From contig NZ_CP006745.1 of the NCBI RefSeq assembly GCF_000510265.1, positions 181,444-245,443 of the forward strand: a DNA stretch of 64,000 nt. The letters are read 5' to 3'. The position numbers were made by a program, and so were the translations under genes. Within the stretch, counting starts at the first letter, position 1, and every line of letters starts with the position of its first letter. This document shows, in pieces, positions 422 to 4,288 of this stretch. Under the pieces are notes generated by a model. It ran no database searches and was not told the DNA's origin. It saw nothing but the letters and a program-made list of their open reading frames with translations. Source of the DNA: Candidatus Endolissoclinum faulkneri L5 (GTDB lineage: Bacteria > Pseudomonadota > Alphaproteobacteria > Thalassobaculales > Thalassobaculaceae).

Positions 422-1717
422 CTATAATTGTTTAATATTTTGCATACCTCGTCTAACATCGAGTGTATTTCTTTCTAAATCACAATGTAGCCGGATGAAA
501 GGAAACTCTGTTTTGACTGCTTTATGGAAATGATGAGCAATAGAGCGAAGGTTGGAGTGTACAGTTTTACTTGAACGTAATTCTGCTACGTATATCATCT
601 GTCGTAGATCATAAACTATTCGACATGGAACTAATAAGCCGAGCGGGAGATAGTTTTGGCGTTCTTCTTCGGTAGTTTCCAGTTTATTTGAAGCTTTGCG
701 CAGATTTATTATACGCGGAGCGATTGATATCATGGTAGATTCTGGTATATTGTTTATATACCATGGGTGAAAGCCGTACAACCAAGTTAGTAGAGGCATC
801 TCACAATAACCGTTACGATGACGCTGGATATCTCGGAAAGACCCAAAATCGAGTAAAAATCGGCATTCAAATGATGCATATGACCCTACTATCCTTGGGA
901 GTTGTTCGTATTTTGGCCTATCCGTAAAAATCCTTGGGTCCAATAAATCAATAGCACTACGATCAGCATCGCATATATACTCAAAATTTGGATAATTTTC
1001 TTGTTGTGTATGATAATAAGTTTTTAGTTTAGAGATTATCGCCCGATATGCAGATTGTTCTGGTCGATATTTCTGACTAAACGATACTGGGTATTTTTTC
1101 TTTAGTTTTGTAAGAATTATTGCCGCTGTTTCACGGGTTTCAGTTAGGGGATGTAGAGAAAGAGTTCGTAAGTGGTCTGCAGCCTGGCGCAAGTTAGTTG
1201 TCCATGAAAGTTGGGATTTTACTCCGGCAGGCAGAAATCCTCGAGAAATATCAAATGCTCTTGCTTCAAGGGTTTTTGCCCATATTTCTGCTTTAATACC
1301 ATCCGGGCAGGGATAAGCGAGAGTTAACTTTGATAGGATAGCGGAATGAACTTTGGTATAAATCTCAATCCATTCGCATATAATTGCTTTTGACTTTGTT
1401 GTACCGACCGGGTCGGTGTATCCATTATTGGAGAAATTAATGTAGCGAGTAGATGTCTCTTGGCCAAAATACAGTGGAGTATTTTGCAGTGCTTTGCAGG
1501 TTAGAATAGAAACTTCTTCTATAAAGATTGTTGTGAAGCCACAATCTCCGATTGATTCATGACCATACTCTACATAATATTTTTCCATAAACTTCTCAAA
1601 TCCACGATCTTCGACATTGGAAAGGTGATCGATGATACTCGATGCTGATCGGCTATATAGTGCTTGAAGCATGGAATTTGCTTCTGGTTTTAGGCCGTCT
1701 TCGATCAAGATTCGCAT
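422..1717 (-). CDS. Two-domain ThyX-like protein (FAD-dependent thymidylate synthase superfamily)
   Basis: This 431-residue protein resembles flavin-dependent thymidylate synthase ThyX but is about twice the usual bacterial length. Visible ThyX-like features are GHESIG (52-57), QETSTRY (86-92, matching the end of the RHR-x7-S/R signature) and a later helix region around 155-200 (SRGFLPAG, then WTTNLRQ). In this first half the Arg-His-Arg of the signature is missing (LQNTPLYFG). An intact QRHR triplet appears only in the second half (298-301), there without the following Ser and Arg. The start is supported by a GAGGGG ribosome binding site 8 bases upstream of the ATG. Canonical ThyX makes dTMP from dUMP with methylene-tetrahydrofolate and FAD. 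Whether this split-motif form does so cannot be told from sequence. It could be a non-catalytic paralogue or an enzyme with another substrate. It stands alone between gene-free flanks. Confidence 0.72.
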   Translation of the reverse strand: MRILIEDGLKPEANSMLQALYSRSASSIIDHLSNVEDRGFEKFMEKYYVEYGHESIGDCGFTTIFIEEVSILTCKALQNTPLYFGQETSTRYINFSNNGYTDPVGTTKSKAIICEWIEIYTKVHSAILSKLTLAYPCPDGIKAEIWAKTLEARAFDISRGFLPAGVKSQLSWTTNLRQAADHLRTLSLHPLTETRETAAIILTKLKKKYPVSFSQKYRPEQSAYRAIISKLKTYYHTQQENYPNFEYICDADRSAIDLLDPRIFTDRPKYEQLPRIVGSYASFECRFLLDFGSFRDIQRHRNGYCEMPLLTWLYGFHPWYINNIPESTMISIAPRIINLRKASNKLETTEEERQNYLPLGLLVPCRIVYDLRQMIYVAELRSSKTVHSNLRSIAHHFHKAVKTEFPFIRLHCDLERNTLDVRRGMQNIKQL

Positions 1718-2789
1718 TATTTAGCCCCTCTATCTTTCCATATTTTTCTGAATTTTGTTACTTGGATAACTAAATATCAAATGCATTCATAAAGTTTTAG
1801 ATGTTTTTATAGAAAACTTATTTAAATTTTTTCATAAACGGCTGTTGCTTATAAGCAGTAAATTTTAATCACAGCAGTTTATCATTTATTCCTTGTCTAC
1901 TTTTTAATGAGATATCAGTTTAAAATTTAGTTCATTAATCAGAATTTTTTAATTCTGTAGCGGGATATAAAATATTGTGTTGTTCGTATTAGTAATGTAC
2001 TAATTTATTTATATTTTAGGTAAAATCTTCTCATCGGTACTACTTGAAATTTACTTGCTGGATTTACAAAAGCAATAAATAAAATCTTAGCTGTTGTACT
2101 CAAGTTAATTTTTATGATTGACAGGTAAAATCATAAAGTGTCCTTTTTTGAAAAATTCTCGCTATTCATAAAGCAGTTTTTACTTCAAGAAAAAATTTTT
2201 TGCTTCTTGATTTTAATTACCGCGAATTTTATGAAGATTTTTGTTTTATTTATAGTGATTTTTATATAAAAAAATTGTTCTGTAGTTAATTTATACGGTT
2301 AATCATTACGCTTTTATTACATAACACTTATGTAAAATGTTTATTGATGGTTTGTTTAAATGAGAAAAATATTTTTATGGAGTTAAGTTTATTATTAAAT
2401 AATTAACTATGTAATGTTATAGTTAATTATGATATTTCGTGTTCAATTGTATTTTTATTTCTAACAAATAGTTTTAATCTAGGCGGATGAGTAAAAACTC
2501 ATTTTATAAGAATACTGTTGCTTGTTTTCAACTATTTTAGCTCATCTGTAAGCATTAAGTTTTAAACACTCTTTTGTGTTAAGATCTTGATAAGTTTTGA
2601 AATATGAATTCCTTAGTTTCTGATTGCTGCTCGTTTGAGCAAATGCTTCTAGGAATTTTGCATTCATGCTACGCGTTGTCTTTTTTAAACGGAATTATAG
2701 ATATTCTCGGATATTCGGATTTTTATGTATTTAGAATTAATTGCTTAGATGGATATTTTATTAATCAATAAGTGGAGAATATTCTTACT
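1718..2789. other. Gene-free gap upstream of hisA, with several hairpins
   Basis: No gene is supported. In related bacteria hisB and hisH usually sit just before hisA, but no remnant was recognised. The gap holds a perfect 12-bp stem with an 8-base loop (2399-2430), a 6-bp stem followed by TTTTAT (2487-2502), and a nested stem at 2185-2210 followed by TTTTAATT. The last two look like plus-strand terminators with no gene in front of them, which may mean lost genes. Confidence 0.5.
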
Positions 2790-3530
2790 GTGATTCTTTA
2801 TCCGGCAATTGACATAAATGGTGGAAAATGTGTTCGTTTGCTTCGTGGTGAAAGGAGTAGCGCTACAATATATGCCATTGATCCTGCTGCCCAAGCCAAG
2901 TATTTCCAGGATGCTGGTTGTACATACATTCACGTGGTGGATCTGGAAGGGGCTTTTTCTGGTAAAGTAGTGAACGTAGCAGCCGTGCGTTCCATATTAT
3001 CAATCGTGGATATTCCTGTGCAGTTTGGGGGTGGTATTCGAAATCGTACCCATATTGATGCTTGGATTAATGCTGGAATTAGTCGTGTTATATTAGGTAC
3101 ATTGGCTGTATCTAATCCAGACTTGGTAGCAGCTGCTTGTCGCGATTATCCAGGCATGATCAGTGTTAGTATCGATGTTCGCGGTGGCAAAGCGGCAATT
3201 CAGGGATGGACTAAAACCTCTAAACTAACTGCTAGAGATCTGGCATTAAAATTTGAGGATGCTGGTGTTGCTTCTATTGTTTTTACTGATATTGACCGAG
3301 ATGGCACTATGAAAGGGCCGAATTTTAAAGAAACTAAAATATTAGCTCAGGTATTATCAATACCGGTTATCGTTTCAGGTGGAGTGTCTTCTATTAAGGA
3401 TTTATCGAAGTTAACCAAACTGAATAGCGATGGTGTAGAAGGAGTTATTGTCGGCAGAGCACTATATGATGGCAGGATTAATTTGAATAATGCACTACGT
3501 GTACTTGCTGGAGATAATATTTTATGCTAA
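2790..3530 (+). CDS. hisA: HisA, phosphoribosylformimino-5-aminoimidazole carboxamide ribotide isomerase
   Basis: HisA performs the Amadori rearrangement of ProFAR to PRFAR in histidine biosynthesis (cytoplasmic TIM barrel). The N-terminal strand PAIDING carries the first catalytic Asp, and FTDIDRDGT carries the second. The two phosphate-binding loops are FGGGIRN and the later VSGGVSS with GVIVGRALY. The family normally begins with M-hydrophobic-hydrophobic-hydrophobic-PAID, so the GTG at 2790 is preferred. It has a GGAG 12 bases upstream. An in-frame GTG at 2772 would add six residues and lacks a ribosome binding site. The last seven bases overlap hisF, which indicates one operon hisA-hisF-hisE-HIT. 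Length (246 residues) is normal and nothing is degraded. Confidence 0.95.
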
Positions 3531-4288
3531 ATGTGCGCGTTATTCCCTGTCTAGATGTTAAGGCTGGTCGCTTAATTAAGGGGGTAAAATTTGTTGACCT
3601 GATCGATGCCGGTAGCCCGGTAACGCAGGCTAAGTTTTATAATGCCGAAGGAGCAGATGAGCTATGCTTTTTGGATGTTGTTGCTAGCCAGGAAGGTCAG
3701 CGTACGATATTTGATGTAATTGGTCTTGTTGCTGAAGAGTGCTTTATGCCGCTAATGGTGGGTGGTGGGGTGCGCAACATTGAGGATATACGCAAGCTTT
3801 TACTCATTGGAGCTGACAAGGTTGTCATTAATACTGCAGCGGTGAACAATCCAGAGCTTGTTCGCCGCGCAGCAAACAAGTTTGGCAGCCAGTGCATTAC
3901 AGTTGCCATTGATGCTAAGCGCACGATTGGTGGTAGGTTTAGTGTTTTTACGCACTCCGGCCATCAGCCTACTGGTTTAGATGCTGTTGTATGGGCGCAG
4001 CAAATGGTCGAATATGGTGCAGGTGAGATTATGTTGACATCTATTGATCGCGATGGCACCAAACAAGGATTTGATATATCATTAACTAGGAGTGTCTCTG
4101 ATTCTGTACAAGTACCAGTCATTGCTTCGGGGGGGGTTGGTACACTGGATCATTTGGTGGAAGGAGTTTTTGCTGGTCATGCCAGTGCAGTGCTATCTGC
4201 TTCTATTTTTCATTCAGGTACTTACCGAATTAGCGAGGTAAAAAAAGCAATGTTTGCTGCTGGTATTGCTGTTAGACAGAGCGATTGA
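3524..4288 (+). CDS. hisF: HisF, cyclase subunit of imidazole glycerol phosphate synthase
   Basis: HisF converts PRFAR and ammonia to imidazole glycerol phosphate and AICAR. It normally works in complex with the glutaminase HisH, which supplies the ammonia. The protein has the expected length (254 residues). The first catalytic Asp is in [10 protein letters not shown] and the second in [19 protein letters not shown] and IASGGVGT are the two phosphate-binding loops. It starts seven bases inside hisA and hisE follows seven bases after its stop, so the three are surely co-transcribed. No hisH is next to it, although it is usually a neighbour. The subunit must be encoded elsewhere or the step is changed. 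Confidence 0.96.

Follow-up and report, generated by a model that had tools for sequence, protein, structure and literature searches.

A fused double-domain ThyX with a complementarily split active-site signature, the probable thymidylate synthase of Candidatus Endolissoclinum faulkneri L5

The window, a stretch of 64,000 nucleotides from Candidatus Endolissoclinum faulkneri L5, carries on its minus strand an open reading frame (ORF) for a double-domain ThyX protein of 431 amino acids (422..1717). The ThyX signature was divided between the two halves: the N-terminal domain (D1) had S.R without RHR, and the C-terminal domain (D2) had RHR and the equivalent of Arg174 without S.R. The cell very probably uses this protein as its thymidylate synthase; it would be a ThyX that was duplicated, fused and specialised by complementary loss, with one composite active site per chain.

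The gene starts with an ATG at 1717 and ends with a stop codon at 422-424, and the plus strand of the same positions was riddled with stops. A Shine-Dalgarno-like AGAGGGG (1725..1731, minus strand) lies upstream, with a 7-nt spacer to the ATG; AGAGG was also found in strain L2. The organism is a sea-squirt endosymbiont with a 1.5-Mb genome and a coding density of 57%, and both strains, L5 and L2, have been described (PMC3851785). The genome of the window consists of a single contig of 1,518,636 bases. The nearest named relative of the protein was found in Candidatus Endolissoclinum faulkneri L2 (NC_019566.1), with 87% identity across the whole protein. The genes of the two strains were 87.3% identical, compared to only 57% and 63% for the 400-bp flanks, and the G+C content was 0.389 in the gene and 0.249 and 0.237 in the flanks. 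Between the strains, dN was 0.065, dS 0.466 and dN/dS 0.14, equal in both halves. The gene is thus under purifying selection and not eroding, as an earlier note had supposed from a ribosome binding site kept in a decaying region. Further along the window, on the plus strand (2772-4288), two ORFs overlap by 7 bases; by sequence, they resemble hisA and hisF. The 1-kb stretch between the ThyX gene and these ORFs held no ORF of at least 70 aa.

The ThyX-like character of the protein was confirmed by Pfam. Thy1 (PF02511) matched in two stretches, with an E-value of 3.1e-15 and 56.9 bits against a gathering cut-off of 24.8. It was the sole Pfam match of the ORF at E-values up to 1, and PF00303 (Thymidylat_synt, ThyA) did not match. 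The NCBIfam thyX equivalog model, TIGR02170, scored 29.6 bits, far below its cut-off of 87.9. The signature expected within one domain, RHR followed by S..R, was complete in neither half, RHR occurring only in D2 and S.R only in D1.

D1, the putative dUMP-loop half, spans residues 1-222 (1052..1717, minus strand, as are all features below), as delimited by structural alignment to the ThyX of Mycobacterium tuberculosis (Mtb). By alignment with Mtb, His53 and Ser55 in its GHES motif (residues 52-55, in GHESIG 52-57; 1553..1564) correspond to Mtb His69 and Ser71. The canonical RHR place is taken by N79-T80-P81 (1475..1483), and RHR is lost there. In GQETSTRY (residues 85-92, with QETSTRY at 86-92; 1442..1465), E87, S89, R91 and Y92 align with Thermotoga E86, S88, R90 and Y91. 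Two more arginines could be assigned: Arg159 (1241..1243), equivalent to Thermotoga Arg147, which is kept in D1 and lost in D2, and Arg177 (1187..1189), equivalent to Mtb Arg190, a subunit B residue in Mtb. An approximate linker of residues 223-242 (992..1051) follows, placed by lower pLDDT blocks at 231-250. D2, the putative flavin-holding half, covers residues 243-431 (425..991), as delimited by structural alignment to T. maritima ThyX. Its Arg299-His300-Arg301 (815..823) is followed by NGYCEMPLLT, without Ser and Arg; CEMPLLT (residues 305-311; 785..805) occupies the canonical S..R place, which is lost in D2. In ELRSSKTVH (residues 379-387; 557..583), Arg381 corresponds to Thermotoga Arg174 and Mtb Arg199 by the Mtb alignment.

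A single-chain AlphaFold2 model, computed from 30 aligned rows comprising the window protein and related loci, had a pLDDT of 88.3 and a pTM of 0.87. Its weak spots were residues 41-60, which hold GHES (pLDDT 67-68), and the end (59). The modelled protein had a ThyX fold in both halves. All 15 matches found by Foldseek in the PDB at E-values up to 0.001 were ThyX. With VIA-align 2, model residues 243-416 were placed on T. maritima ThyX (3g4c_A; Z 12.6, rmsd 3.0, 171 aligned) and residues 2-224 on Mtb ThyX (3gwc_E; Z 11.6, rmsd 4.6, 201 aligned). One viral model matched across both domains (TM 0.90, 449 columns). The matches also included PolB structures (Z 9.8, rmsd 3.0, 166 aligned; Z 9.5, rmsd 3.0, 177 aligned), a result that would suit a substrate-shifted enzyme such as a PolB-like UMP methylase. 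Such a shift had been proposed for this protein before. We consider it highly improbable, because the protein was the sole thymidylate synthase candidate found in all 12 genomes that carry it; the PolB Z scores were also below those of the best ThyX entries.

Homologues of the same architecture and motifs (type I) were found in 12 of the 385 alphaproteobacterial genomes of the class sample, in two bacterial plasmids, in phages and at 38 usable viral-contig loci. The earlier impression that only a few double-domain ThyX-like proteins exist was therefore too narrow. The alignment comprised 56 proteins, 12 from bacteria (including the window), 6 from phage or plasmid records and 38 from viral contigs; an 88 aa fragment (L091) was dropped beforehand, and merging of identical rows reduced the 56 to 49. 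Viral loci had been retrieved with two D1 patterns, one of them GH[AE]SIGD, so the retrieval itself accounts for part of the conservation seen at the start of YSRS and in GHxSIG in these loci; RHR, E.STR and ELR did not serve as patterns. The frame ran open through both halves in the 12 separate genomes, in most viral loci and in the records of phages and plasmids. Nothing was found to suggest that two genes had been joined artefactually in assembly or annotation; these independent genomes refute that idea, and we give it practically no credence.

The split of the motif over two halves, noticed earlier in the single protein and here located on the minus strand, was borne out in all 49 non-redundant homologues. 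In D1, S55, E87, S89, R91 and R159 were invariant (49/49 each), Y92 was present in 48/49, H53 in 47/49 (Asp in two homologues) and R177 in 39/49. The RHR triplet never occurred in D1 (0/49): its first Arg place was never Arg, and the third was Arg in 2/49. In D2, R299 and R301 were invariant (49/49), H300 was kept in 47/49, and R381 and H387 were present in 48/48, one row being truncated there. Neither Ser at the S88 place (309) nor Arg at the R90 place (311) was found in any D2 (0/49 each). Two viral contigs, L064 and L065, were the only rows of the 49 with the His of the D2 RHR replaced, their triplet reading RQR.

New residues were conserved at the lost places, namely D79 (40/49) and P81 (38/49) in D1 and P308 (44/49) in D2. 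They might mean that each half forms its own site with substitute residues, giving four working sites with altered chemistry. This is very unlikely: the kept residues fall into published subunit roles, and in 49/49 homologues D1 was without the first RHR Arg and D2 without both the Ser and the Arg of the loop. The conserved stretch at the lost RHR place of type I D1 (residues 75-81; window 1475-1495) can be written K-A-x-[QE]-D-x-P. The dead site of type I D1 may have a new role.

The published subunit roles come from canonical structures. In Mtb ThyX, one active site is built by subunit A with RHR 95-97 and Arg199, by subunit B with Ser71 and Arg190, and by subunit C with the Gln103 backbone, Arg87, Ser105, Arg107 and Tyr108 (PMC6514825). 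In the viral ThyX of PBCV-1, Gln75 and Arg182 of monomer A, together with Ser88 and Gln89 of monomer B, hold an inhibitor that overlaps the dUMP pocket, and the ThyX tetramer has 222 symmetry (PMC3498832). Mapped through the printed Mtb alignment, the A set fell into D2 and the B and C sets into D1. As one canonical subunit contributes RHR and Arg174 (Thermotoga numbering) and another contributes Ser88, Arg90 and Tyr91, D2 would resemble the flavin-holding subunit and D1 the dUMP-loop subunit. Each half has lost the part that the other keeps, so the halves most likely share one active site. The earlier suggestion of a fused dimer with its site between the halves is thus well supported by the partition and the published subunit roles.

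From the observed partition, selection and gene content, the modelled fold and these published roles, we infer the following arrangement and activity. After duplication and fusion of ThyX and complementary loss in the two halves, D2 would hold the flavin through RHR and present its Arg174/Arg199 equivalent to dUMP. D1 would act as the partner subunit, supplying the Ser-x-Arg-Tyr loop over dUMP and a wall of His53, Ser55 and Arg177. In a ThyX-like pseudo-tetramer formed by two chains, two composite sites would be complete and the other two dead. If D2 takes positions A and D, and D1 takes B and C, whole sites would arise at A and D; these live sites would methylate dUMP in the flavin- and folate-dependent manner usual for ThyX.

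Several observations count against a composite enzyme. The Gln75 place on the flavin side of D2 was changed to Asp in 48/49 and Glu in 1/49. The D1 place of Mtb Arg87 (subunit C) was Ile, Met, Leu, Cys or Asn and never Arg; in the Mtb alignment, Thermotoga likewise has no Arg there. Further points are the incomplete conservation of Arg177, the two homologues with Asp for His53 and the low equivalog score. According to PDB titles, Corynebacterium glutamicum can dispense with its atypical single ThyX, which also counts against a composite enzyme, though that organism depends on ThyA.

Gene content was examined in the same 385 genomes. A thyA gene or a Thy1 match was present in 352 of them, two of which had both. 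Of the 385, 113 had thyA, including none of the 12 with type I double ThyX. Each of the 12 had a single Thy1 match, the double ThyX ORF itself. In the window genome, where the earlier note had raised the question of a thyA or another thyX elsewhere, both were looked for and none was found, PF00303 giving no match. Of the 12, only the four genomes belonging to the genus of the window had DHFR_1, and the other 8 lacked it; many ThyX-dependent bacteria have no DHFR_1 (PMC1971073). Tdk had no match in 11 of the 12, the window genome included, and G275 gave a partial match of 20.7 bits against a cut-off of 20.6. One genome of the window genome's family (G107) had thyA and no Thy1 match, and the family therefore appears to have switched its type of thymidylate synthase.

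These data bear on another proposal, that of a non-catalytic ThyX paralogue in a symbiont that obtains thymidine or dTMP from its host. An endosymbiont with so small a genome and so low a coding density (PMC3851785) could fit this, as could the canonical motif broken inside each half. The proposal is nevertheless very unlikely, because the protein is the only thymidylate synthase candidate in 12/12 genomes. Two of the 12, from the genus of the window, have genomes of 5.4-5.6 Mb (99-100% complete), in which the double ThyX likewise stood alone. Moreover, the absence of a Tdk match in the window genome and the low dN/dS argue against it, and the catalytic residues are invariant, though distributed.

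Beyond type I, 13 genomes with weak Thy1 scores were re-inspected, and 7 of them held double proteins of 447-541 aa (open-frame lengths). The other six (G217, G343, G106, G025, G382 and G021) had frames of 120-233 aa, whose length points to single-domain proteins or fragments; these six were not counted as double ThyX. In type II (G089, G090, G201 and G293), D1 had DQRSGR[FY] without RHR, and D2 had DQRHR without S.R. In type III (G024, G156 and G333), D1 had NEFS[AG]RY, with [ML]NG at the RHR place; D2 had IRHR and the LR of Arg174 without the S.R pair, one of the three keeping the Ser but not the Arg. A type II-like protein from another class (G385, locus L119) kept R-H-P in D1. By its sequence, this D1 looks like a less eroded state, an intermediate in the loss of RHR. 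In the aligned rows of all three types, Arg147 was found in D1 and not in D2. His53 was found in D2 in type III, unlike in types I and II, so the wall of the B role would differ between the families. Either placing would give two whole sites, since only the A and C sets must sit in different halves.

None of the eight type II and III genomes (G385 included) had thyA. Tdk was present in G201, where salvage is thus possible, and was not found in the other seven. With types I-III combined, 19 genomes of the class, a count outside which G385 stands, had a double ThyX only. A thyA or separate Thy1 gene was present in 0/19 of these and in 333/366 of the rest of the class (Fisher p 1e-18, with the relatedness of genomes ignored). 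In a 249-genome sample of the phylum, reaching beyond the class, a profile built from 12 rows picked up the window genome and otherwise only four weak matches, at 20-23.5 bits. The four were rejected as double ThyX, their frames of 280-295 aa (two of the four frames were read) being too short.

The origins of the split were addressed with domain trees, in which long branches were present, and BLAST. Both type III halves grouped with canonical alphaproteobacterial ThyX (support 95/91, and 97/91 without the motif columns). In BLAST against canonical ThyX, the top scores were 107 bits for type III D2 and 60 bits for type III D1. Four type II proteins were tested, and their halves had their best match in the short-type ThyX of genome G371, which shares its family with three of the four. 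With motif columns dropped, a single clade was rejected both for all D1 (p 0.012) and for all D2 (p 0.025); with all columns it was not rejected (p 0.085 and 0.11). Grouping of type II with III was rejected for D1 and D2 both without the motif columns (0.021 and 0.024) and with all columns (0.016 and 0.047). Type I with III was not rejected, either with all columns (D1 p 0.23, D2 p 0.26) or without the motif columns (0.17 and 0.069), and neither was type I with II (0.41 and 0.44, all columns only). The chance of a complementary split by random partition was estimated per family at 0.06 for five residues and 0.03 for six, values that assume independent loss and serve as a guide only.

The complementary split seems to have arisen on at least two occasions, and three origins are possible. 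We lean slightly towards a broader reading, in which ThyX would have been duplicated and fused at least two, perhaps three, times independently into an obligately asymmetric enzyme, the N-terminal copy keeping the dUMP loop and the C-terminal copy the flavin-holding RHR, with two live and two dead sites. The conserved residues of the dead sites would possibly serve regulation or the handling of NADPH or folate, and the His53 wall in D2 of type III would mean that its halves are placed differently in the tetramer than those of types I and II.

With canonical ThyX (PF02511; T. maritima, M. tuberculosis), these proteins share the fold in both modelled halves and the equivalents of R78, R80, S88, R90, Y91 and R174, here present once per chain. 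They differ in having two fused domains with half a signature each, one composite site expected per chain and Asp at the Gln75 place. Canonical ThyX is a homotetramer with four sites that binds FAD and makes dTMP from dUMP and methylene-THF. A ThyX domain duplication in Chloroflexi was noted as uncharacterised by Valas and Bourne in 2009 (PMC3224940), with no motif analysis in that part of the paper. Trypanosomatid deoxyhypusine synthase, as presented in PMC3663545, is similarly a tetramer of catalytic and dead copies that arose by duplication, but it is another enzyme, encoded by separate genes without fusion. In the open-access literature, the scope of our search (subscription papers and preprints lay outside it), no description of a complementary split was found. 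Among the sequences compared, which did not include the Chlamydia trachomatis enzyme, there was also no close family of full-length homologues with known canonical activity, which would have removed the novelty seen in the earlier note. Chlamydia trachomatis ThyX is a long form. It is a flavin-dependent thymidylate synthase reportedly studied biochemically by Griffin et al. (2005, in JBC); if it is a split double ThyX, the activity of such enzymes would already be shown.

A composite enzyme would explain dTMP synthesis in some bacteria and phages that have neither thyA nor a ThyX with the signature. An RHR...S.R motif or an equivalog model scored within one domain misses such a working-looking enzyme. 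The fusions would dissect the three-subunit site into separable roles and so offer ready-made variants for the debated mechanism of ThyX, a drug target that humans lack. Complementary loss that recurs after fusion would also make a good case for the passage from symmetric to obligately asymmetric enzymes.

The homologues on the Parabacteroides and Miltoncostaea plasmids were annotated as FAD-dependent thymidylate synthase, and those of phages as thymidylate synthase or thymidylate synthase-like in two cases and as hypothetical in others. No shared neighbours were seen by eye in 11-12 kb at six type I loci, in 10 kb at one type II locus or on an 8.3-kb type III contig, a rough look whose simple ORF picker overlooked even the ThyX gene in two of the eight stretches (L122 and L127). 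In phage Tunturi_5, the homologue directly followed a dCMP deaminase gene, with a dUTPase three genes before it. On the short contig of the type III double ThyX of genome G024 lies a minus-strand ORF (L129, 1056-1607) whose start resembles that of a dCTP deaminase.
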